Source: Flavobacterium sp. KACC 22763
Lineage (GTDB): Bacteria > Bacteroidota > Bacteroidia > Flavobacteriales > Flavobacteriaceae
DNA length: 64,000 nucleotides
Direction: 5' to 3'
Assembly (NCBI RefSeq): GCF_028736155.1
Contig: NZ_CP117879.1
Span: 3,286,001 to 3,350,000, forward strand
Each line of letters opens with the position of its first letter. The first letter of the stretch is position 1. Positions 25,159 through 58,913 of the stretch are shown here, in pieces. The position numbers and the translations under genes were made by a program. The notes under the pieces were generated by a model. That model made no database searches. It worked only from the letters and a program-made list of their open reading frames with translations, and was not told where the DNA came from.

Positions 25159-25262
25159 TACCTGATTATAGGTAAAAAATATATTTTGAATACCTAAACC
25201 TCTAATCCTCTATCTTTTTAATGTAGTTTTAAGGCCGAATCTAAGATTTTATTTTACATTTG
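25159..25262 (+). promoter_or_regulatory. carH upstream region: three TACCT half-sites and a -7 element
   Basis: TACCT (25159), AGGTA (25170, inverted) and TACCT (25191) lie within 37 bases; the first two form TACCT-gattat-AGGTA. TACATTTG at 25255-25262 matches the -7 consensus, 18 bases before the ATG. The half-sites are candidates for an autoregulatory or other operator. Confidence 0.4.
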
Positions 25263-25280
25263 TTGACTTAATCGCGAAAA

Positions 25281-26180
25281 ATGATAAACAATATTAAAAC
25301 TGTTTTCAGCATTAAAGATCTTGAGAACTTATCTGGAATAAAAGCGCATACCATACGCATCTGGGAAAAGAGATACAACATCCTTGAACCTATGCGAACT
25401 GATACTAATATTAGATTTTACAATCTTCACAATCTGCAGAAACTTTTAAATATAACGTTACTGCATGAATACGGTTATAAGATTTCCAAAATTGCAACAT
25501 ACCCTGAAGAAAAGATACCACAACTGGTACGCGAAATAATCTCGAAGAAAAACTCTCAAAACTACGCCATTACATCTTTTAAAATGGCAATGATGAACTT
25601 TGATCAAGAGTTATTCTTTAATACATTCGATTGGCTAATTACCGAAAAAACGTTTAAAGAAGTTTTTAAAGAACATTTTTTACCTCTTTTAAAAGAGCTT
25701 GGATTATTATGGCAATCTGAAACCATCACTCCTGCAAATGAACATTTCATGAGCCATTTGATCAAGCAGAAAATCTTAATTTACACAGAAAGTCTTCAAA
25801 TAAGAAAACCCATAAAAACTGATCGAATTTTTGTTTTATCACTTCCGTTAAACGAAATTCACCAGATCGGATTATTGTATCTGCAATACGAAATTCTTGA
25901 TAAAGGCTACAAAACCATTTATCTTGGAGAAAGCATGCCAATTGAAAACCTACAAGATTTAACCAAACATTTTGAGAACATTACGTTTATTTCTTTCATG
26001 ACTGTCCAACCTGACAGAAGTGTAATTAATCAGTATGTAAAATCTATGGGACAGAAATTGCTGCAGGAAAATAACGAAATCTGGCTTATGGGTAAAATGG
26101 TAGAACATATCGACCAAAAAATCATTACAGACAGAATTCGCATTTTTGATTCTATGGAAGAAACTATTAACATGCTTTAA
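25281..26180 (+). CDS. carH: MerR-family B12-dependent photoreceptor repressor, CarH/LitR type
   Basis: 299 residues. An N-terminal MerR winged helix (TVFSIKDLENLSGIKAHTIRIWEKRY) is followed by a four-helix bundle with W-x9-EH (WQSETITPANEH) and a Rossmann B12 domain carrying ExHxxG (NEIHQIG). Both are the cobalamin-contacting signatures of CarH. In characterised CarH proteins, adenosylcobalamin drives tetramer formation and operator binding in the dark, and light breaks the Co-C bond and releases DNA. The next genes are crtI and crtB, a photolyase lies nearby and B12 salvage genes are 24 kb away. Lower-ligand His presence argues for a light-sensing rather than B12-free paralogue. Confidence 0.9.
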   Translation: MINNIKTVFSIKDLENLSGIKAHTIRIWEKRYNILEPMRTDTNIRFYNLHNLQKLLNITLLHEYGYKISKIATYPEEKIPQLVREIISKKNSQNYAITSFKMAMMNFDQELFFNTFDWLITEKTFKEVFKEHFLPLLKELGLLWQSETITPANEHFMSHLIKQKILIYTESLQIRKPIKTDRIFVLSLPLNEIHQIGLLYLQYEILDKGYKTIYLGESMPIENLQDLTKHFENITFISFMTVQPDRSVINQYVKSMGQKLLQENNEIWLMGKMVEHIDQKIITDRIRIFDSMEETINML

Positions 26181-26186
26181 TTTAGT

Positions 26187-26220
26187 TTTGTTTAAGTTTT
26201 TCTTATATTTGTTAAACAAA
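26187..26220 (+). promoter_or_regulatory. crtI operator/promoter: 9-bp inverted repeat spanning the -7 element
   Basis: TTTGTTTAA (26187-26195) and TTAAACAAA (26212-26220) are perfect reverse complements 16 bases apart. The spacer ends with the -7 element TATATTTG (26204-26211), and the right arm includes the A of the crtI ATG. No -33 TTTG occurs at 19-21 bases. The same repeat and spacing recurs at 33292 and 53546. Confidence 0.75.
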
Positions 26221-27686
26221 TGAGAAAGACGATTCAAATAATAGGTTCAGGCTTCTCTTCTTTAGCAGCCGCATGTTACCTTGCCCAACAAGGAAACGAG
26301 GTAACTGTTTACGAAAAAAACAATACAATTGGCGGACGTGCGAGACAGTTTAAAGCAGACGGTTTCACTTTTGACATGGGACCAAGCTGGTATTGGATGC
26401 CTGATGTCTTCGAACGCTTTTTTCAGGATTTCAATAAAAAGCCTTCTGATTATTACGAACTGATAAAATTAAATCCAGCCTACAGGGTTTATTTCGGAAT
26501 CGATGATTTTATCAGTATTTATGATAATTTGGAAGAAATAAAATACACTTTTGAAACCATAGAAAAAGGAAGCGGTATAAAACTGCAGAATTTTATTGAC
26601 CAAGCTAAAAGCAACTATGACATTGCCATTAAAAATTTAGTGTATCGTCCAGGAATCTCTCCTCTCGAATTAATCACTAAAGAAACTGCTTTAAAACTGG
26701 ATCAGTTTTTTAAGAATGTCAGCAGTGATATTCGCAAAAATTTTAAAAATGAAAGATTAATTCAGATTCTAGAATTTCCCGTTTTATTTCTCGGAGCAAA
26801 ACCGGACAAAACTCCTTCATTTTACAATTTTATGAATTATGCCGATTTCGGTTTAGGAACTTGGCATCCAAAAACAGGAATGTTTGATGTCATTCAAGGA
26901 ATCGAAAAACTGGCTTTGGAACTTGGCGTAACTATTAAAACCAATTCGCCAATAGAAAAAATTATTGTTGAGAATAAAATCGCAACTGGAATCGTGATTA
27001 ACGGTGAGGCTCTAAAAGCTGATATAGTTCTAAGCGGAGCAGATTATCATCATTCTGAAACTTTACTTGAAAACGAATATAGAATGTATTCTGAAAAATA
27101 TTGGGAGAATAGAATTTTTGCACCTTCATCTCTCCTATTTTTTATTGGTTTTGATAAAAAAATAGAGAATATTTCGCATCATGCCTTGTTTTTTGATGTT
27201 GATTTCAATCAGCATGCAGCAGCTATTTACGATCAGCCAAAGTGGCCAGAAGCTCCATTGTTCTACGCCAACTTTCCATCTAAAACAGATAAAACTGCTG
27301 CGCCAGAAGGAATGGAATCTGGGTTTTTCTTGATTCCGCTTGCCCCTGGAATTGAAGATAATGAAGAACTGAGAGAAGAATATTTTGAAAAAATCATATC
27401 CCGCTTTGAAGAACTTACCCAGCAAAAAATTAAAAATAACATTATCTTTAAGAGATCATTCTGTAAAAACGACTTTGTAACCGATTATAATGCCTACAAA
27501 GGAAATGCTTACGGAATGGCCAATACTTTATTGCAAACGGCTTTTTTGAGACCAAAATTAAAAAGCAAAAAGGTCAAGAATCTATATTTTACAGGACAAT
27601 TAACTGTTCCTGGCCCAGGTGTTCCGCCTGCTTTAATTTCAGGAAAACTAGCAGCTGAATTAATTCAAAAATCTTTTAGATCTTAA
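26220..27686 (+). CDS. crtI: Phytoene desaturase
   Basis: 488 residues. The FAD-binding Rossmann motif is at the N-terminus (IIGSGFSSLAAACYLAQQG ... YEKNNTIGGRARQF), and the C-terminus has LYFTGQLTVPGPGVPPALISG, diagnostic of CrtI-type carotenoid desaturases. It converts phytoene to lycopene-type carotenoids. It overlaps the operator and is followed three bases later by crtB. Confidence 0.96.
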   Translation: MRKTIQIIGSGFSSLAAACYLAQQGNEVTVYEKNNTIGGRARQFKADGFTFDMGPSWYWMPDVFERFFQDFNKKPSDYYELIKLNPAYRVYFGIDDFISIYDNLEEIKYTFETIEKGSGIKLQNFIDQAKSNYDIAIKNLVYRPGISPLELITKETALKLDQFFKNVSSDIRKNFKNERLIQILEFPVLFLGAKPDKTPSFYNFMNYADFGLGTWHPKTGMFDVIQGIEKLALELGVTIKTNSPIEKIIVENKIATGIVINGEALKADIVLSGADYHHSETLLENEYRMYSEKYWENRIFAPSSLLFFIGFDKKIENISHHALFFDVDFNQHAAAIYDQPKWPEAPLFYANFPSKTDKTAAPEGMESGFFLIPLAPGIEDNEELREEYFEKIISRFEELTQQKIKNNIIFKRSFCKNDFVTDYNAYKGNAYGMANTLLQTAFLRPKLKSKKVKNLYFTGQLTVPGPGVPPALISGKLAAELIQKSFRS

Positions 27687-27689
27687 AAA

Positions 27690-28529
27690 ATGAAATCACT
27701 ATTCGACGCCGTTTCTTTCAAATGCAGCAAATTGGTTACCAAAAATTACAGCACTTCATTTTCTCTGGCTGTAAAAATGCTTTCGCCAAGTATTCGTGAT
27801 GCGATTTACAGCATTTACGGATTTGTACGTTTTGCCGATGAAATTGTAGATTCATTTCATGGCTACGAAAAAGAATATCTAATTGAAGATTTTGAAAAAG
27901 AATATTACAAAGCAATGGAATTGGGCATCAGCTTAAACCCGATTTTGAATTCTTTTCAGCAAACTGTAAAAGAATATAATATTACCGACGATTTGGTTCA
28001 GGCTTTTCTAAAAAGCATGAAAATGGATCTTATAAAATCAAATTACCAAACACAAACCGAATACATCGATTACATTTATGGTTCTGCAGACGTTGTGGGT
28101 TTAATGTGCCTAAAAGTTTTTGTGACTGGAAAAGAGCACAAATACGAACAGCTGAAATACGAAGCCATGCGTTTAGGATCGGCTTTTCAGAAAGTAAATT
28201 TCCTGAGAGATTTAAAAGACGACAATACCATCTTAAACCGTTCATATTTTCCTGGCATAAACTTGAATAACTTTAACGAAGATTCAAAAAACCAGATTAT
28301 CAAAGAAATTGAAGAAGATTTTAGAATTGCTTATCAAGGAATTGTAAAGCTGCCTATAGAAGCTAAATTCGGAGTTTATACTGCCTATGTATATTACAAA
28401 AAATTGCTCAAAAAGCTAAAAAATACGCCTTATTATGAAATTGGAAATGCAAGAATTCGAGTTTCCAACTATACCAAAGCGGGACTTTTGGCGCAGTCTT
28501 TTGTGACTTATAAATTGAAGTTGGTTTAA
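27690..28529 (+). CDS. crtB: Phytoene synthase
   Basis: 279 residues. The two Asp-rich motifs of squalene/phytoene synthases are present as RFADEIVDSF and NFLRDLKDD. It condenses two geranylgeranyl diphosphates to phytoene at the membrane surface. The three-base gap to crtI implies one transcript and translational coupling. No isoprenyl diphosphate synthase or lycopene cyclase lies in the window. Confidence 0.95.
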   Translation: MKSLFDAVSFKCSKLVTKNYSTSFSLAVKMLSPSIRDAIYSIYGFVRFADEIVDSFHGYEKEYLIEDFEKEYYKAMELGISLNPILNSFQQTVKEYNITDDLVQAFLKSMKMDLIKSNYQTQTEYIDYIYGSADVVGLMCLKVFVTGKEHKYEQLKYEAMRLGSAFQKVNFLRDLKDDNTILNRSYFPGINLNNFNEDSKNQIIKEIEEDFRIAYQGIVKLPIEAKFGVYTAYVYYKKLLKKLKNTPYYEIGNARIRVSNYTKAGLLAQSFVTYKLKLV

Positions 28530-28760: not shown

Positions 28761-29201
28761 ATGATTTCTTTTTTAATCTTTTTAGGCGTTTTTCTGTTCA
28801 TGGAATGTGTGACTTGGCTTACGCACAAATACGTCATGCATGGTTTTATGTGGTATTTTCACGCCGATCATCATCAGCCGAAATATGAAAACACCTTTGA
28901 GCGCAACGATATTTTCTTTGTCATTTTTGCCACTCCGAGTATAATTTTATTCTATTTTGGTGTCGAAGGCGGATTCAATTATCTTTTTTTTATCGCATGC
29001 GGCATTACACTTTATGGCGCTTGTTATTTTCTAATCCATGATGTTTTAATTCATCAGCGATTTAAATGGTTTAAAAACACCAAAAACAAATACCTCATCG
29101 GACTCCGAAAAGCTCATAAAATACACCACAAACACCTAGAAAAAGAAAAAGGAGAATGTTTCGGAATGTTGTTTGTTCCATTCAAATATTATAAAATATA
29201 G
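28761..29201 (+). CDS. crtZ: Beta-carotene 3-hydroxylase (CrtZ, fatty-acid-hydroxylase superfamily)
   Basis: 146 residues, four membrane helices, and the di-iron histidine clusters HKYVMHG, HADHHQP, HDVLIHQR and HKIHHKH. It hydroxylates beta-ionone rings to give zeaxanthin. Its substrate needs a lycopene cyclase, which must be encoded elsewhere. A MITE-like repeat lies between it and crtB, and the SRPBCC gene follows after 34 bases. Confidence 0.93.
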   Translation: MISFLIFLGVFLFMECVTWLTHKYVMHGFMWYFHADHHQPKYENTFERNDIFFVIFATPSIILFYFGVEGGFNYLFFIACGITLYGACYFLIHDVLIHQRFKWFKNTKNKYLIGLRKAHKIHHKHLEKEKGECFGMLFVPFKYYKI

Positions 29202-29235
29202 CATTATTTGGGCGTTTTTCAAGAACAATTTGATT

Positions 29236-29706
29236 ATGAAATTATACAAAATAGTAACCGTACAGCATATAAATGCTAGTGTTGAAGATTGCTGGGATTT
29301 TTTCTCAAGTCCGATAAACCTGCAAACTATTACACTAGATACCATGAATTTCCAAATTCAGGATTATGACGGCAAACGTATGTATCACGGACAGATTATT
29401 ACCTACACCTTAAAACCACTTTTTGGAATCAAAATGTCTTGGATAACTGAAATTACGGCTTGCCAAGAAAATGAGTATTTTGTAGACATTCAGCAATTCG
29501 GTCCTTATAAATTATGGCATCACAAACATTTCTTTGAACCAACATCAGATGGAGGAACAAAAATGACCGACATTGTTCATTACGCTCTCCCATTTGGAAT
29601 TCTAGGAAGGATCATAAACCGTTTAGTCGTAAAAAACAAACTGAAAAACATTTTCGATTACAGATATAACAAAATCGAAGAGTTATTTAATTCTAAAAAC
29701 GCTTAA
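29236..29706 (+). CDS. SRPBCC-family (START-like) protein of the carotenoid cluster
   Basis: 156 residues from the Met of MKLYKIVTVQHINASVEDCW. The pattern of an N-terminal strand, DCWDFFSSP and a C-terminal amphipathic helix matches the SRPBCC hydrophobic-cavity fold. An in-frame ATG at 29173 overlaps crtZ and is rejected. Similar proteins commonly sit beside crt genes and photolyases in Flavobacteriia; a role in binding or handling a carotenoid or other lipid is inference. Confidence 0.82.
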   Translation: MKLYKIVTVQHINASVEDCWDFFSSPINLQTITLDTMNFQIQDYDGKRMYHGQIITYTLKPLFGIKMSWITEITACQENEYFVDIQQFGPYKLWHHKHFFEPTSDGGTKMTDIVHYALPFGILGRIINRLVVKNKLKNIFDYRYNKIEELFNSKNA

Positions 29707-29709
29707 AAA

Positions 29710-29848
29710 TTCAAACACATAGAATCATAGAATTTAGATTGAGAAAAAAGGCGTTTCACTTGCATAAACACACATAGCTATGTGTTAGAAACTAGTTTCT
29801 TTCCAAACTTCTTAAAAAGTAAAATAAATCTATGTTTCTATGTGTTGA
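29710..29848. repeat. MITE-like repeat, copy B (139 bp)
   Basis: Same orientation and layout as copy A: TTCAAACACATAGAATCATAG end, AAAGGCGTTTCACTT, the perfect palindrome ACACATAGCTATGTGT, AGAAACTAGTTTCT, and CTATGTTTCTATGTGTTGAG at the other end. It lies between the SRPBCC and photolyase genes, so copies A and B bracket crtZ and SRPBCC as direct repeats. Confidence 0.85.
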
Positions 29849-29913
29849 GAAAAACAGTACAGAGAATAAAAAATCATTTAAATCCCATTAATCTGTGGCA
29901 AAAAAACAAAACA

Positions 29914-31209
29914 ATGACAAAACAAAAAGTTACTTTATTCTGGTTTAGACGCGATTTACGTTTAGAAGACAACACGGGATTATTTCATGCTTTGCAATCA
30001 GATTTTCCTGTTGTTCCATTATTCATTTTTGACGATGACATTATAGAACATCTTCCTAAAAACGATGCCAGAGTAACTTTTATCTATGATTCATTAGAAA
30101 AAATAAATTCAGAATTAAACAAACTTGATTCTTCCATTTTAATTAAAAAAGGAAAAACTACTGACGTTTGGAAATCGCTTATTGAAGAATTTGACATTCA
30201 AAGTATTTTCTTCAATAAAGATTACGAACCGTTTGCTATCAAACGTGATACTGTAATTTCATCTTTATTACAAGAAAACAACATTGAAACTTTCTCTTTT
30301 AAAGATCACGTCATCTTCGAAGAAAAAGAAATCACAAAAGCTGACGGACTTCCATACACGGTTTACACGCCTTATAAAAACAAATGGCTAGAGAAATATC
30401 ATTTTTTAGGATCAGCTCCAGAATATGATTCTACTTCACATCTCTCTAATTTTGCAAAAATTAATTTCAAATTTCCTGACTTAACCGAAATTGGTTTTGA
30501 AAGAAGCTCTATAAAAGTTCTTCCACACAACTTAACACAAATTGCCAATTATAAAGAAACCAGAGATTTTCCAGCCTTAGACAGCACTTCTTATCTTTCG
30601 CCACATTTACGTTTTGGAACAGTTAGCATTAGAAAATTAGTAAACTGGGCAAATAGAAAAAATCAGACATTTTTGAGCGAATTAGTTTGGAGAGAATTCT
30701 TTATTCAGATTTTATTTAGTTTTCCAAATTGCATCAATCATAATTTCAAATCTAATTATGACGGAATCCAATGGCGAAATAATGAAGAAGATTTCAAACG
30801 ATGGTGTTCTGGAACAACCGGATATCCGATGGTCGATGCTGGAATGCGTCAGTTAAATGAAACTGGATACATGCATAATCGCGTTCGCATGGTTGTGGCG
30901 AGTTTTTTATGCAAACATTTGCTGATTAACTGGCAATGGGGCGAAGCGTATTTTGCCGAAAAACTTTTAGATTTTGAATTGGCTTCAAATGTAGGAAACT
31001 GGCAATGGGCAGCAGGAACAGGTTGTGATGCCGCGCCTTATTTCAGAGTTTTTAATCCTGAAATCCAGCAAAAAAAGTTTGACCCAAAAGGAGAATACAT
31101 CCGAAAATGGATTCCTGAATTTGATTTAGGCTATAACGAACCGATGGTTGATCATGCTTTTGCGAGAGATCGTGCGATTGCTACTTATAAAAAGGGAATT
31201 ATTAAATAA
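29914..31209 (+). CDS. phr: Deoxyribodipyrimidine photolyase / cryptochrome family protein
   Basis: 431 residues. The N-terminal antenna domain starts VTLFWFRRDLRLEDNTGLF. The FAD domain holds FLSELVWREFFIQILF, GYMHNRVRMVVASFL and NWQWAAGTGCDAAPYFRVF, closest to class I CPD photolyases. It repairs UV-induced cyclobutane dimers using blue light. The start at 29914 is chosen by family N-terminus; earlier in-frame codons run into the repeat. Confidence 0.94.
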   Translation: MTKQKVTLFWFRRDLRLEDNTGLFHALQSDFPVVPLFIFDDDIIEHLPKNDARVTFIYDSLEKINSELNKLDSSILIKKGKTTDVWKSLIEEFDIQSIFFNKDYEPFAIKRDTVISSLLQENNIETFSFKDHVIFEEKEITKADGLPYTVYTPYKNKWLEKYHFLGSAPEYDSTSHLSNFAKINFKFPDLTEIGFERSSIKVLPHNLTQIANYKETRDFPALDSTSYLSPHLRFGTVSIRKLVNWANRKNQTFLSELVWREFFIQILFSFPNCINHNFKSNYDGIQWRNNEEDFKRWCSGTTGYPMVDAGMRQLNETGYMHNRVRMVVASFLCKHLLINWQWGEAYFAEKLLDFELASNVGNWQWAAGTGCDAAPYFRVFNPEIQQKKFDPKGEYIRKWIPEFDLGYNEPMVDHAFARDRAIATYKKGIIK

Positions 31210-31290: not shown

Positions 31291-32595
31291 TTAGTATTTC
31301 AAATAATTCTCCACAACGATTTTCGCTTTCAAATCAAACATTAAATTATATAGACCAAAGAAAGTACGATTCATATAAATAAAGTGCTTAGAGCCGCGAT
31401 TTCCGTTCATTTTTTTCAAGTTTGTATCTTCTGAGAATCTTTTACCTAATTGAGCAATCGCATTGAAGAATTCTTCATCTGCAAAATCGAACGTATCGTT
31501 TTGAAACGGTTTAGTAAAAAGAGACAATAAGTCATGAAACATTTCGGTGAAATATTCAATTTCTGCTGGCGTATCATCTGGACGAAGAATTTCTAATTCG
31601 AATAATTTCTGATTGAAAAGCTTCTCATCTGTTATGACATTTTTATTGATCAGCTCAAAATATGGTGTATAGAAATCGTCTGGAATTTGTTTCATACAGC
31701 CAAAATCTAAAGCAATTAATTGATTTTGATCATCAACCAAAAAATTTCCTGGATGCGGATCTGCGTGGACTTTTCTTAAAACATGAATTTGATACATATA
31801 AAAATCCCAAAGCGCCTGACCTAGTTTGTCACCAGCTTCTTGATCTTTGTTTATAGCTGTAAATTCAGAAAGATGAATTCCTGTCATCCAATCCATTGTA
31901 ATTATTTTCTCAGATGAAAACTCTGGATAATAATTCGGAAAAGTAATATTTTCGATTTTACTACAAGCCTCGACAACCTCTTGGCTTTGCTTTAATTCCA
32001 GCAAATAGTTGGTTTCTTCAATCAGTTTATCTTCAACTTCTTTGAAGTATTTATCAGAATCTTTTCCTTGTAGATTAAACATTCTAATTGCAATAGGTTT
32101 TACCAAAGCTAAATCGGAAGAAATACTATTGGCAACACCTGGATATTGAATTTTAACTGCCAGTTTTTTATCGCCTTTCTTTGCCAAATGCACCTGACCA
32201 ATACTCGCCGCATTTACAGAATTTGGGTTGAACTCGTCAAAAATCTCATAAGGCGTTTTTCCAAAATTGCTTTTGAACGTCTTTAAAACCAAAGGAGCAG
32301 AAAGAGGCGGAACAGAAAACTGCGACAATGAAAATTTCTCAACATAAGCTTGAGGCAGAAAGTTCTTATCCATACTCAACATTTGAGCCACTTTCAAGGC
32401 GCTTCCTTTTAAGCTTTTTAGTCCGTCATAAATATCTTCGGCGTTGTTCTCGTTAAGTTTGTCACGGCTCAAATCTGGATTAACCATTTTTTCGGCATAA
32501 TGTTTTACGTAGTTTACGCCAATTTTAGCACCAGTCTGAACCAATTTTCCTGCTCGTTCTATTTTTGAGGTCGGAATATAATCGATCGTTTTCAT
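31291..32595 (-). CDS. ABC1/UbiB-family atypical kinase-like protein
   Basis: 434 residues. ABC1 signatures are KGSALKVAQMLSMD (the KxGQ-like motif, here KVAQM), AASIGQVHLA, LAVKIQYPGV and VHADPHPGNFLV followed by LALDFGCMKQ. The family includes UbiB and plant plastid kinases tied to isoprenoid quinone and carotenoid metabolism; activity is ATPase-like. It overlaps the upstream TetR gene by four bases, so both are one transcript. Confidence 0.9.
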   Translation of the reverse strand: MKTIDYIPTSKIERAGKLVQTGAKIGVNYVKHYAEKMVNPDLSRDKLNENNAEDIYDGLKSLKGSALKVAQMLSMDKNFLPQAYVEKFSLSQFSVPPLSAPLVLKTFKSNFGKTPYEIFDEFNPNSVNAASIGQVHLAKKGDKKLAVKIQYPGVANSISSDLALVKPIAIRMFNLQGKDSDKYFKEVEDKLIEETNYLLELKQSQEVVEACSKIENITFPNYYPEFSSEKIITMDWMTGIHLSEFTAINKDQEAGDKLGQALWDFYMYQIHVLRKVHADPHPGNFLVDDQNQLIALDFGCMKQIPDDFYTPYFELINKNVITDEKLFNQKLFELEILRPDDTPAEIEYFTEMFHDLLSLFTKPFQNDTFDFADEEFFNAIAQLGKRFSEDTNLKKMNGNRGSKHFIYMNRTFFGLYNLMFDLKAKIVVENYLKY

Positions 32596-33254
32596 TGTCT
32601 GCTGTATACTTTTTCTTTGAACAAAAATTTTCCGAAATCTATCAAATGATTCATTGGCGCAACATTCATCAATTCAAATGATGCATTAACAGATTTTTCA
32701 ATAAAAATATCTGTCTTTTCGAAAGCAGGAGATTCATCTTCCATCCAGAATTTGATTGTCATCATTAATTGCACCCAAGAAGATTCCTGAATGGCTTTTT
32801 CTTGAAATTTCTGAAACTTTTCCTGTTCTAATCTGTAATCATCTGTCAGGATTTCAGAAACATATTCTTTAAAACTATTTCGAAGAGCAGTTAGCTGAAC
32901 TAAATTTTTAAGCGGATTTTTGTCCATCTTTAGCGATTGCAAAACATAGCTTCTGTTGGCAGTCAGGATTTCGAAGAAAGTAAAATAAAAACTCAGCATT
33001 TTATTTTTCATATCATATCCTTGGTATTCTTCGTTTTTATGAAGAAGATTAACCGTATTTTCAAAAAACAGTCGGAATATTTCTTTTTCTAAACCTTCTA
33101 ATGTTCCAAAGAAAGCATAAAATTCAGCTTCTGTAAAATCATTTTCTTTGGCAAAATGATAAACCGATTTTGGTTTTTGGCCTTTTTCTAAAACCTCTTC
33201 CATATATTTTGAAACGATATCATCTTTGGTAATTACCTTTTTTTTAGTCGCCAT
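32592..33254 (-). CDS. TetR-family transcriptional regulator
   Basis: 220 residues. The N-terminal helices (TKDDIVSKYMEEVLEKGQKP ... YHFAKENDFTEAEFYAFFGT) match a TetR DNA-binding fold, though the recognition segment is unusual. The C-terminal ligand-binding domain is unassigned. It is translationally coupled to the ABC1 kinase gene and divergent from the TIGR01777 gene. A long inverted repeat shared with crtI and btuF lies in the intergenic region, so it is the alternative candidate to CarH for binding it. Confidence 0.82.
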   Translation of the reverse strand: MATKKKVITKDDIVSKYMEEVLEKGQKPKSVYHFAKENDFTEAEFYAFFGTLEGLEKEIFRLFFENTVNLLHKNEEYQGYDMKNKMLSFYFTFFEILTANRSYVLQSLKMDKNPLKNLVQLTALRNSFKEYVSEILTDDYRLEQEKFQKFQEKAIQESSWVQLMMTIKFWMEDESPAFEKTDIFIEKSVNASFELMNVAPMNHLIDFGKFLFKEKVYSRQ

Positions 33255-33279: not shown

Positions 33280-33323
33280 AAAGGTAAACATTGTTTAAGT
33301 ACCTTTACTAATCCTTAAACAAG
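33280..33323. promoter_or_regulatory. Divergent tetR/epimerase operator
   Basis: TTGTTTAA (33292-33299) and TTAAACAA (33316-33323) are perfect reverse complements 16 bases apart, as at crtI. A second perfect pair, TAAAGGTA (33280-33287) and TACCTTTA (33301-33308), interleaves with it. Each TACCTTTA reads as a seven-of-eight match to the -7 consensus, one on each strand. Confidence 0.72.
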
Positions 33324-33352: not shown

Positions 33353-34264
33353 ATGGCTCAAAATGTTCTATTGACAGGTGGAAGTGGTTTCATTGGAAAA
33401 CATTTGACAGATGTCCTAATCGAAGCAGGTTTTTCTGTGTCTGTTTTAAGCCGTTCTGATAGAGAAAATACCCCAAGAGTTACCTATTACAAATGGGATA
33501 TCAAGAAAAACTATATTGACAAAAATGCAATTCTAAATGCAGATTACATCATTCATCTAGCTGGCGAAGGAATCGTCGAAAAAAGATGGACCAAAAGACG
33601 TAAAAGAGCCATTATTGAGAGTCGTGTTAGACCAGTCGAAATGATTTATTCCGTTTTAGAAATGAATAATAAAAAACTGGAAGCTTTTGTTTCTGCTTCT
33701 GGCATCGGAATTTATGGCGCTATTACAAGCCATAAAATATGTACTGAAAATACGCCTCCAGCCGATGATTTTTTAGGCACAACTTGTCAAAAATGGGAAA
33801 GCGCCGCAGATAAAATCAGTTCTTTAAATATTCGAACAGTTAAAATTAGAACTGGTATCGTTTTAGGCAAAAACGAAGGCTTTTTAAAAAAAATGACTCC
33901 ATCATTTAAATCTGGTTTTGGCGCCATTTTGGGTTCTGGCAAGCAATACCTTCCTTGGATTCATATTGAAGATCTGTGTCAGATTTATTTAAAAAGCATT
34001 GAAGACACTAAACTAGAAGGTGCCTACAATGCTTGTGTAACAGATAATACAACAAATGCCAGATTTTCTAAAACTTTGGCTAAACTGTACGATTATACTA
34101 TATGGTTGCCCAAAGTTCCGCCTTTTGTATTAAAGATTATGCTTGGGCAAATGAGCGTAGCAGTTTTAACCGGACAGCGTGTTTCGTCGGAGAAAATCCA
34201 GAAAGCAGGTTTCGAGTTTCAATTTACCGATTTAGAAAAGACGCTTATCAATTGTATCAAGTAA
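33353..34264 (+). CDS. TIGR01777-family NAD-dependent epimerase-like protein
   Basis: 303 residues. The N-terminal Rossmann motif NVLLTGGSGFIGKHL is followed by IIHLAGEGIVEKRWTKRRKR and a DUF1731-like C-terminal end (VLTGQRVSSEKIQKAGFEF). The family (E. coli YfcH, plant SDR39U1) has no settled reaction. In Flavobacteriia such genes often accompany photolyases and crt genes. Its promoter is shared with tetR. Confidence 0.9.
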   Translation: MAQNVLLTGGSGFIGKHLTDVLIEAGFSVSVLSRSDRENTPRVTYYKWDIKKNYIDKNAILNADYIIHLAGEGIVEKRWTKRRKRAIIESRVRPVEMIYSVLEMNNKKLEAFVSASGIGIYGAITSHKICTENTPPADDFLGTTCQKWESAADKISSLNIRTVKIRTGIVLGKNEGFLKKMTPSFKSGFGAILGSGKQYLPWIHIEDLCQIYLKSIEDTKLEGAYNACVTDNTTNARFSKTLAKLYDYTIWLPKVPPFVLKIMLGQMSVAVLTGQRVSSEKIQKAGFEFQFTDLEKTLINCIK

Positions 34265-52355: not shown

Positions 52356-53498
52356 TTAATTCAGTTTTGATGCAAAAGTAAATTCGTAGCCTGCCAGTAA
52401 ATCTGGATGAAAAATCTTGATATAATCTTTTAAAACTAAATCGGGACGGCTTGGTGCAAGTTCATAATAAACTGTTCCGCCTGTTGCTCCCATTTTCCCT
52501 TCAAAATTATATACCGTTTTATTTTTAAAAGCGTCAAATTCTGCATAATGCGGATTTGCTTTTTGCAATTCATCCAAACTTTTAAAAGATCCAGAAGCAA
52601 TCCATATATTAGCTATTTTTGCCTTATCTAATACTTGTTCAAAAGACAATCCTTCACTTCCCGTTCCTTGCAAGTCGGCCCATAAATAATTAGATTTTGC
52701 ATCTTTCATAAACTGCGCCACCCAACTATTTCCTTTGGCAACATACCAAACATCTTCGTACATAGAACCATATAAAACTTTTGAAGTTGCAGGTTTATCG
52801 GTTACTAGTTTTTTTGCTTGATTGTAACTTTCAACGATTTTATCAAAGAGCTCTTTTGCTTTTTCTTCTTTCCCGAATAAAGCACCATAAAGTTTAATCC
52901 ATTCTGCTTTTCCTAGCGGAGACTGTTCCATCCAATCGCCTTGAATAAGAACTTTTAAACCGCTTTTTTTCAAATTATCCAACATCGGATTATTATTATC
53001 GACACCAAACGTAACGATCAAATCTGGTGACAATTCTATTAATTGTTCAATGTTCAATTTTTCATTTTGTCCAACGTTTTTCACAGAACCTTTATCAATT
53101 AATGCTCTAGTTTTTTCTGAAGAAATATAATCGGTATGAGGAAATCCGACCAATTTATTCTCAACTTCCAACATTTCTAAAAAAGGAATATTTGTAGTTG
53201 AAGTTACAACAACACTTTCTAGTGGAACTTTTATTGAGGGATATTTTTTTAAACTGTCTGGAATTTGTGAGTCTTTTTCCTCTAAAATGTAAGTGAATTT
53301 CTCCTTAGCATTTGGCCACGGATTCACCACATTTACAATTGAATAGCCTTCGTTTTTCACAATTGAAAGTCCCGATGCAAATTCGATGCATTCTTTGGCA
53401 GTGGCAGATTTTACAGGAGTTTGTATCTCATTTTTTTTACAGCCAACTACTATAAAAAGTAAAAAAACGACTGATAATTTATGGAAAAAATATTTCAT
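52356..53498 (-). CDS. btuF: ABC transporter substrate-binding lipoprotein, BtuF/FepB type
   Basis: 380 residues with a lipobox (FLLFIVVGC) and a two-lobed binding fold: VVVTSTTNIPFLEMLEV, LSPDLIVTFGVDN and IWIASGSFKSLDELQ. Homologues deliver cobalamin or siderophores to the permease. Neighbouring cobU, bluB-cobT and cobS genes support cobalamin. It is divergent from the CWC gene, and the long inverted repeat lies between them. Confidence 0.88.
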   Translation of the reverse strand: MKYFFHKLSVVFLLFIVVGCKKNEIQTPVKSATAKECIEFASGLSIVKNEGYSIVNVVNPWPNAKEKFTYILEEKDSQIPDSLKKYPSIKVPLESVVVTSTTNIPFLEMLEVENKLVGFPHTDYISSEKTRALIDKGSVKNVGQNEKLNIEQLIELSPDLIVTFGVDNNNPMLDNLKKSGLKVLIQGDWMEQSPLGKAEWIKLYGALFGKEEKAKELFDKIVESYNQAKKLVTDKPATSKVLYGSMYEDVWYVAKGNSWVAQFMKDAKSNYLWADLQGTGSEGLSFEQVLDKAKIANIWIASGSFKSLDELQKANPHYAEFDAFKNKTVYNFEGKMGATGGTVYYELAPSRPDLVLKDYIKIFHPDLLAGYEFTFASKLN

Positions 53499-53519: not shown

Positions 53520-53578
53520 CAAAGGTAAATCAATTTCTATTTTTTTTGTTTACCTTTATTTGTACAAATTTAAACAAA
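53520..53578. promoter_or_regulatory. Divergent btuF/CWC operator
   Basis: TTTGTTTAC (53545-53553) and TTAAACAAA (53570-53578) match the crtI and tetR sites, with the same 16-base spacer and one arm mismatch. TACCTTTG (minus strand, 53520-53527) is a consensus -7 element for btuF. AAAGGTAAA (53521) and TTTACCTTT (53549) are a second inverted pair, and ATTTGTACAAAT is a palindrome inside the spacer. Confidence 0.7.
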
Positions 53579-53592
53579 TAGCCTTTTATTTA

Positions 53593-53955
53593 ATGAGTGC
53601 ACCAAAAACAAAAATTTGCTCCAGTTGTGAAGCCGCTTTTTCATGCGGAGACATTTCATCTGAAAATAAGTGCTGGTGTAATGATTACCCTCCTATTTTC
53701 AACCTTGCCGACGGAGGTGACTGCCTTTGTCCTCTATGTTTTAAAGAAGCTTGCGAAGATAAAATCGATGCTTACATTGAAACTTTAACCCCAAAAAAGG
53801 CACTTAATAATAAAGCTATGCAATTACCCAAAACCGACAATCTAATTGAGGGAATCGATTTTTATATCGAAAATGGCAATTATGTCTTTAAAACTTGGTT
53901 TCATCTAAAAAGAGGAACCTGTTGCGGAAATAATTGTCGACATTGCCCTTATTAA
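53593..53955 (+). CDS. Cysteine-rich CWC protein with DUF5522-like C-terminus
   Basis: 120 residues. The N-terminal half holds CSSCEAAFSCGDIS ... CWCNDYP (CWC family). The C-terminal half holds FYIENGNYVFKTWFHLKRG followed by CCGNNCRHCPY, typical of DUF5522. Fifteen or so Cys suggest zinc binding. The ATG at 53593 follows the operator by 14 bases; earlier in-frame codons lie in btuF. The function is unknown, and position links it to B12 uptake. Confidence 0.82.
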   Translation: MSAPKTKICSSCEAAFSCGDISSENKCWCNDYPPIFNLADGGDCLCPLCFKEACEDKIDAYIETLTPKKALNNKAMQLPKTDNLIEGIDFYIENGNYVFKTWFHLKRGTCCGNNCRHCPY

Positions 53956-56461: not shown

Positions 56462-56893
56462 ATGCCTTTTACAAAAGTTTATATTCATTGTGTCTGGAGT
56501 ACCAAAAATAGATTCCCGTTTTTAAATACAATTAATCTTCGTCAAAAAGTATGGCATCACATACAAGAAAATGCTTTAAAAAAGGAAATTTATCTTGACT
56601 TTATTAGTGGCCATTCTGATCATTGTCATTGTTTAATTTCACTGGGAAATAATCAAACTATACAAAAAACAATACAATTATTAAAAGGCGAATCTTCATA
56701 TTGGATTAATAAAAATCAGTTAACTAAACATAAATTCGAATGGCAAGATGAGTATTTTGCTGTTTCAGTTTCAGAATCTATTGTAGATAAAGTTCGGGAT
56801 TATATTAAAAATCAGGAAGAACATCATAAAAAGAAAACATTTCAAGAAGAATATGATGAATTTATGATCAAATTTGGGTTTAAGCATTTATGA
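56462..56893 (+). mobile_element. REP-associated tyrosine transposase (IS200-like HUH enzyme)
   Basis: 143 residues. The N-terminus VYIHCVWSTKNRFPFL and the HUH motif DHCHCLISL (His-Cys-His) belong to the Y1 transposase family; the catalytic Tyr lies in VRDYIKNQEEHHKKKT. RAYT proteins cut single-stranded DNA at REP hairpins. REP-like palindrome pairs lie immediately downstream. It separates bluB-cobT from cobS. Confidence 0.9.
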
Positions 56894-58654: not shown

Positions 58655-58687
58655 TTTGAATAATCAATATTTTTAACTTTATCTTTG
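58655..58687 (+). promoter_or_regulatory. Promoter of the riboswitch-btuB transcript
   Basis: TTTG at 58655-58658 and TATCTTTG at 58680-58687, 21 bases apart, fit the consensus. It lies just upstream of the riboswitch. Confidence 0.8.
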
Positions 58688-58697
58688 CAGCAAATTA

Positions 58698-58880
58698 AGG
58701 TTGTGTTTTTGATTTAAAAATACATTAAAAGGGAATCAAGTAAATTCTTGAGCTGTACCCGCAACTGTAAGCTAAGTTCAAAACGAATGCTTGCTGTTAA
58801 CTACAAACCACTGTCACGCCTTGCGTGATGGGAAGGTAAACAGCAAGACGCAAGCCAGGAGACCTGCCTTTGTAACAATT
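58698..58880 (+). ncRNA. Cobalamin riboswitch
   Basis: In order: AAGGGAAT, GAGCTGTACCCGCAACTGTAA, ACCACTGTC ... GGGAAGGTAAACAGC and the B12 box GCCAGGAGACCTGCC (58854-58868), all conserved elements of the AdoCbl/MeCbl riboswitch. It is followed by btuB. In the family, cobalamin binding reduces translation or transcription of the uptake genes. Confidence 0.97.
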
Positions 58881-58913
58881 TATCGAACTCTCGGGAAAAA
58901 GAGTGAAGAATTT

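Follow-up and report, generated by a model that had tools for sequence, protein, structure and literature searches.

The crtI gene of this Flavobacterium genome begins at the edge of a long palindrome, which raises the question of what protein reads the element and which other genes it governs. We analyzed the window, i.e., the whole stretch of 64,000 nucleotides, together with related loci and genomes, and regard the palindrome as very probably the operator of the adjacent CarH-type B12 photoreceptor-repressor, marking a family-wide light (photoprotection) regulon. The sites and genes of the window on which the argument draws are as follows.

25260 to 25291: candidate operator 2, weak (3 mismatches), TTGTTGAC-N16-ATAAACAA, over the carH start codon.
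25281 to 26180, plus strand: carH-like gene, the proposed binder of the sites, with MerR DNA-binding and B12-binding cap domains (Pfam) and a CarH-like predicted fold.
26187 to 26220: candidate operator 1, at crtI, TTTGTTTAA-N16-TTAAACAAA, its right arm abutting or overlapping the crtI ATG.
26204 to 26211, plus strand: TATATTTG, the -7 element, inside the spacer of operator 1 and directly before the right arm.
26220 to 27686, plus strand: crtI, phytoene desaturase (NF058655, 730.5 bits, cut-off 640).
27690 to 28529, plus strand: crtB, squalene/phytoene synthase family (Pfam SQS_PSY).
28761 to 29201, plus strand: crtZ-like hydroxylase, labelled by reading (no Pfam match at 1e-3).
29173 to 29706, plus strand: SRPBCC-like protein, labelled by reading (no Pfam match).
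29782 to 31209, plus strand: DNA photolyase (Pfam).
31291 to 32595, minus strand: ABC1-type kinase, abc1 (Pfam).
32592 to 33254, minus strand: TetR-type protein with TetR_C_23 (Pfam), a proposed target and not the binder.
33291 to 33322: candidate operator 3, between the divergent tetR-abc1 (minus strand) and TIGR01777 oxidoreductase gene (plus strand).
33353 to 34264, plus strand: TIGR01777 family oxidoreductase (family profile).
52356 to 53498, minus strand: periplasmic binding protein (Pfam Peripla_BP_2), BtuF-like by reading and by its B12 neighbours.
53546 to 53577: candidate operator 4 (1 mismatch), between the divergent gene of the B12-type periplasmic binding protein (minus strand) and DUF5522-cobU (plus strand).
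53593 to 53955, plus strand: DUF5522 protein, the first gene before cobU and bluB-cobT.

The genes thus run in the order carH, site, crtI, crtB, crtZ-like, SRPBCC-like and photolyase, followed by abc1 and tetR on the minus strand, an exact site and the TIGR01777 gene. In other species, genes similar to the SRPBCC-like one have a site of their own. A pattern scan of the window yielded two exact copies of TTGTTTAA-N16-TTAAACAA, one at 26188-26219 and the other at 33291-33322, besides a one-mismatch copy, with TTGTTTAC as its left arm, at 53546-53577. The original prediction had counted three copies of an eight-base arm pair at one spacing: all three are present, exact twice and with one mismatch in the third, and the second lies one base before the position given for it (33292-33323). 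Its placement of every copy in a gene cluster with light or B12 functions needs correcting for the second, which serves the tetR-abc1 // TIGR01777 promoter pair and not a known light gene. The crtI copy does span the -7 element (26204-26211) and touch the start codon, as had been described, its outermost A being the A of the crtI ATG (26220). We take TATATTTG to be a Bacteroidota-type -7 element, of which the consensus is TAnnTTTG.

At up to two mismatches, the window contained 4 matches against 0.49 expected, and none of 100 shuffles gave 4. The fourth of these matches (56629-56660; two mismatches) is within an ORF and looks like chance. The whole genome (5.56 Mb) possesses only the two exact matches and the single one-mismatch match, all three within 27 kb. 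Matches at up to two mismatches carry no signal in this genome alone, as they number 39 versus 36 for a reversed-pattern control, and no obvious regulon member was found near 12 of 36 two-mismatch sites when the first 40 residues of the neighbouring ORFs were read.

The symmetrised consensus of the sites is TTTTGTTTAAY-N14-RTTAAACAAAA, in which the eight inner arm bases were fixed by the search itself. A core TAAACA is present in both arms, inverted and 24 bp apart, such that the element reads TGTTTA-N18-TAAACA. This half-site core fits the TnnACA core of the CarH repeats, as given in the accessible parts of two reports (PMC9304148, PMC8156234). Tandem 11-bp recurrence of TnnACA was not found: among 332 oriented windows, it occurred at -11 in 1.2% and at +11 in 0.3%, with a background mean of 0.7%. 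Thus, the protein, if it binds, would recognize a familiar half-site arranged in another way. A palindrome with the same arms and a 14-base spacer (AATCTGGGAAATTT type), found at G006:C10:103179, G013:C5:305592, G015:C16:88233 and G052:C61:832, is probably a different element.

We then compared 151 unique carH-crtI loci, counted as unique sequences, among which one species may recur under a slightly different sequence. Conservation upstream of crtI, on which the original prediction had staked itself, was borne out: 108 of the 151 loci keep a site there with up to two mismatches and a spacer of 16 or 17 bases. When spacers from 6 to 26 bases were allowed, the 108 crtI sites had 16 in 97 cases, 17 in nine, and 15 and 10 in one each, and TAnnTTT stood directly before the right arm, at the same offset, in 94 of the 97 gaps with the 16-base spacer. 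The remaining 43 loci have no site within two mismatches upstream of crtI, and 38 of them have one at carH. At the carH start, a match with up to three mismatches was detected in 123 of 155 unique loci, 120 of which have the last base of the right arm at +11 of the gene, and 39 of 3100 random 80-mers from the same loci (real sites included) matched equally well. The weak copy at 25260-25291, which the original prediction lacked, is credited only because its position is conserved in relatives, and since the right arm falls in the coding sequence, the left arm alone is free evidence. Altogether, a site was present at crtI (up to two mismatches) and/or carH (up to three) in 146 of the 151 loci and at neither in five. 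At two loci, L244 and L246, each of the two genes has a full-strength site, with a spacer of 17 bases at carH and of 16 at crtI, which makes these loci a natural test of spacer tolerance.

The protein encoded between these two sites is CarH-like. A MerR-type N-terminal domain is present (Pfam MerR_1, 1e-13), followed by the B12-binding_2 cap domain (1.5e-7); Pfam matched no further B12 domain at 1e-3. According to the accessible part of PMC8156234, CarH homologues are defined by the motifs Wx9EH and ExHx2G. The adenosyl-capping motif Wx9EH is found at W144..EH155 of the window protein and in all of 186 unique homologues, and ExHxxG at E192-G197 and in 184 of the 186. The tail of the motif ExHx2Gx41SxV/Tx22-27GG is degenerate: a loose SxV/T is recognizable in 84 of 184 homologues (the window protein reads FMT), and the GG is kept in three of 184, with G followed by R, K, Q or S in 155. 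The residue after the Trp is Gln in 182 of 186. An AlphaFold model made from 12 sequences had a mean pLDDT of 90.5, and its top Foldseek matches were the Thermus thermophilus CarH entries 5c8e, 5c8d and 5c8f (E about 1e-14, 18% identity). Over the full chain the model and CarH agreed with a TM of 0.5-0.6 and a large rmsd, and over the cobalamin-binding part at about 3-4 A with a target TM of about 0.8. A sequence search returned 3whp and the CarH entry 5c8d as the best matches. The CarH equivalog of NCBIfam, NF052513, was the best family match, at 69.2 bits and far under its cut-off of 400.

Whether the sites follow this protein was surveyed in 121 Flavobacterium genomes, that of the window included, and in one genome each from 119 other genera of the family. 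CarH was regarded as present at about 40% identity or more, and homologues of 32-39% identity as weak. We detected 245 exact sites in 99 of the 121 genus genomes, as opposed to seven for the reversed pattern, and 161 in 76 of the 119 family genomes, as opposed to three, so that 175 of the 240 sampled genomes bear an exact site. The palindrome is a genuine feature, well beyond what chance would give. In the genus, an exact site was found in 95 of 105 CarH-positive and 4 of 16 CarH-negative genomes, and in the family in 73 of 85 genomes with CarH and 3 of 34 with none or a weak homologue only (1 of 24 with none, 2 of 10 with a weak one). The corresponding Fisher p values, 7e-8 and 2e-15, are overstated, as related genomes are not independent. 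The scan of relatives that had been proposed thus links the sites to CarH, and the pattern was the same among genomes at least 90% complete, with 83 of 91 versus 2 of 12 in the genus and 67 of 78 versus 2 of 22 in the family (CarH versus none or weak). Genomes with CarH and no exact site amounted to 10 of 105 and 12 of 85, respectively. The sampled carH loci included three, L218, L224 and L239, titled as Bifidobacterium breve, Rhizobium and Klebsiella pneumoniae MAGs, with a carH 60-62% identical to the Flavobacterium one; they are probably mislabelled or mixed bins.

The exceptions on the CarH-negative side are as follows. Four CarH-negative genomes of the genus carry a site, one each; two of these genomes are 89% complete, with sites at rhodopsin/blh and flavin reductase, and in the other two no ORF start was found within 260 bases of the site. 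The sole CarH-less family genome with sites has five in an assembly that is 81% complete, and the two with a weak homologue are G145 (four sites, one of them before a gene resembling the same TetR by reading) and G127 (one site). We also inspected crtI itself in 36 of the 50 genomes with no or weak CarH (12 of 16 in the genus; 16 of 24 and 8 of 10 in the family), of which 17 possess a full-length crtI homologue (46-72% identity). No site with up to two mismatches was found in the 180 bases around the crtI start in any of the 17. Ten of these homologues are at least 60% identical, three from genomes without detectable CarH and seven from those with a weak homologue, and the remaining seven may be distant desaturases.

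To identify the genes behind the sites, we used 166 distinct exact sites, a non-random subset of the 406 in both samples, drawn from loci among the matches listed and 80 hand-chosen stretches, with most carH-adjacent sites and some others left out. A gene was taken as a target when its ORF start lay within 260 bases, and a site between divergent genes was assigned to the named class. Fasciclin, rhodopsin, beta-carotene dioxygenase, GTP cyclohydrolase I, photolyase, SDR, flavin reductase, DUF2805 and CHRD were named with Pfam, and the SRPBCC-like class by reading. Of the 166 sites, 132 lie 5' of the named gene classes: fasciclin lipoproteins, the commonest target, with 33 (e.g., L385, L049 and L169), crtI with 23, SRPBCC-like and DUF2805 with 14 each (two of the latter with SDR on the opposite side), flavin reductase with 12, folE with 10, rhodopsin with blh with nine, SDR with six more, CHRD, photolyase and tetR with three each, and carH with two. 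This set looks like a CarH/LitR light regulon. The other 34 have no target in the named classes. Some of them also fit photo-oxidative stress or isoprenoid supply, their genes being those for two photolyase-related proteins, a peroxiredoxin, methionine sulfoxide reductase and a GHMP kinase and, at one site, a DUF2805-DUF2452-photolyase run; others are themeless.

Several individual loci deserve mention. At L325 (1601-1675), two exact sites, 43 bases from start to start, lie between divergent rhodopsin and blh genes as a double operator. At L355, on the minus strand, DUF2805 (1307-1588), DUF2452 (862-1392) and photolyase (2-664) follow one site in a row, and DUF2805 and DUF2452 look photolyase-linked. 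L066 (1501-1532) and G083:C31:667334 are exact sites of nearly identical sequence in two species; the one examined is before an aspartate carbamoyltransferase-like gene, off the light theme, and could be a coincidence. For the fasciclin and DUF2805 targets, no close homologue is present in the genome of the window (best hits 40%, along part of the query, and 31%, respectively), and its own regulon therefore seems small.

Of 20 close relatives, 16 have a site with up to two mismatches at the B12-salvage genes, which was absent from all three distant Flavobacterium loci checked. The reading started from btuF in the positive loci except L450, where it started from DUF5522. The presence of this site in close and not in distant relatives looks like a clade-level addition. 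The only cobalamin riboswitch in the window at gathering score (58681-58885) precedes neither of these genes; it lies in this region, away from the site at 53546-53577, where a TonB-dependent receptor gene begins.

The binder could be some other regulator that co-occurs with CarH, the latter being a bystander in the crt cluster. Adjacency and co-occurrence are correlation only, and the known CarH operators are tandem repeats, not one inverted pair, in the accessible parts of the reports on them. Against this, the sites at carH and/or in the carH-crtI gap of nearly every locus are where a local regulator that controls its own gene usually binds, the core of the half-site agrees with the TnnACA of CarH/LitR, and the target classes overlap the LitR regulon as presented in the accessible part of PMC9758184. 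We consider such a regulator unlikely.

Instead of repressing in the dark, CarH could bind as an activator or a MerR-like twister. Activation from a position between the promoter elements is common in the MerR family. TAnnTTTG is inside the site (offset 16) in 21 of 23 crtI and 9 of 10 folE sites and 3' of it (offset 34-36) in many flavin reductase and two of three tetR sites, whereas the left arm itself contributes to it in 11 of 14 DUF2805 sites; it was found near only a minority of the SDR, SRPBCC-like and blh sites. A position that varies among gene classes fits blocking better than an activator of fixed geometry, and the carH site covers the start codon. Activation is thus quite doubtful, and we retain CarH as the probable dark repressor.

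The TetR-type protein (32592-33254) was the alternative binder in the original prediction, with crtI and the others as its targets. TetR proteins usually bind inverted repeats. Operator 3 lies at the promoter of tetR itself, 39 of the 43 unique loci with tetR near carH keep a site 5' of it (up to two mismatches, spacer 16 or 17), and exact sites occur just 5' of tetR located elsewhere as well (e.g., G038, G026 and G068). TetR homologues were detected in 96 of the 121 genus genomes; nevertheless, sites are present in 11 of the 12 Flavobacterium genomes that possess CarH and lack a TetR homologue, among which G009 and G011, estimated to be 100% complete, have exact ones at crtI. The genomes that have TetR without CarH, three in number, are too few to be informative; two of them carry a single site, in one case at a rhodopsin/blh pair and in the other without a target. 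Genomes with neither protein had a site in 2 of 13 cases. The TetR-type protein as the binder is therefore largely rejected and highly improbable, and the CarH-like protein remains the better candidate, as had been anticipated, judging from these distributions.

That the palindromes arose by chance in an AT-rich genome or by overlap with the -33/-7 consensus has the resemblance of the arms to TTTG promoter elements and the background level of two-mismatch matches in the own genome (39 vs 36) in its favor, and is refuted, in agreement with the original prediction, by the reversed-pattern counts in relatives (245 vs 7 and 161 vs 3), the strong preference for the 16-base spacer and the recurrent gene classes, leaving it a negligible probability.

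With CarH as the putative repressor, we infer CarH binding, dark repression, release by light and B12 feedback at the sites by analogy with the known systems. In the dark, oligomers of AdoCbl-loaded CarH would hold both half-sites, and RNA polymerase would be blocked, the site lying over the -7 element, the adjoining space or the start region. The oligomer would break up in light, or when AdoCbl is lacking, and CarH would leave the DNA, allowing expression of crtI-crtB, carH itself, tetR-abc1 and the TIGR01777 gene; the genes released likewise in other species would include rhodopsin/blh, photolyases, folE and fasciclin. At the B12-salvage genes of the close relatives, the absence of AdoCbl would mean no repressor and more salvage, by which the chromophore would be resupplied. 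We lean slightly toward a broader proposal, namely that a B12 photoreceptor with an operator geometry not encountered in the literature examined is the master switch of light physiology in Flavobacteriaceae, including rhodopsin phototrophy and retinal synthesis, and that in one clade it also governs B12 salvage, such that loss of the AdoCbl of the sensor by light turns on its replacement.

In the open-access literature, judged by titles and the starts of abstracts, we found no study on a CarH operator or regulon in Bacteroidota. The bare arm sequences retrieved papers that looked unrelated by title among the matches listed, and no description of the inverted-pair geometry, with cores facing outward and 24 bp apart, was found in the accessible text. 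That literature, as far as its accessible portions go, does not appear to settle how light turns on the carotenoid, photolyase and rhodopsin genes of Bacteroidota. A single motif and a single protein would unite these genes, supply targets in many genomes and point to a light-response gene set in flavobacteria. They would also add a further operator geometry to the CarH photoreceptor family, which is used in optogenetics. The site at the B12-salvage genes hints at a feedback loop between B12 and light, which the accessible parts of the CarH/LitR literature examined do not describe.

Among known systems, a light-induced carotenoid cluster has been reported from Chryseobacterium lacus, of the same phylum as Flavobacterium. 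In the accessible part of that report, light induces crtI, crtB and crtZ, no genes of a car or lit operon were found, and the authors suppose a new regulator (PMC7064467). The CarH proteins of T. thermophilus and Bacillus megaterium, AdoCbl-dependent dark repressors of carotenoid genes, resemble the Flavobacterium protein in the MerR and B12-binding parts, Wx9EH, ExHxxG, the predicted fold, the place beside crt genes, the promoter-overlapping operator and the TnnACA core. The Flavobacterium operator is one inverted pair, whereas those of T. thermophilus and B. megaterium consist of three to four tandem 11-bp repeats. The Flavobacterium protein further differs in the degenerate end of the B12 motif and the wider set of site-bearing genes, and has Gln beside the Trp where T. 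thermophilus CarH has the His that ligates cobalamin after photolysis.

Pseudomonas LitR/PplR (class II LitR) is alike in its multi-gene light regulon, the light-induced targets of which include photolyase, SDR, cryB and folE in the accessible part of PMC9758184. The LitR operator given there, T(G/A)TACA-N12-TGTA(C/T)A, is likewise a spaced pair of TnnACA-type hexamers, of which the direction is ambiguous because TGTACA is its own complement; the Flavobacterium TGTTTA-N18-TAAACA differs from it in both hexamer and spacing. Pseudomonas PmlR2 is governed by a LOV partner, whereas the Flavobacterium protein keeps the Wx9EH and ExHxxG of CarH. Altogether, the predicted Flavobacterium system would differ from the known CarH/LitR regulons in the geometry of its operator and in the greater breadth of its targets.
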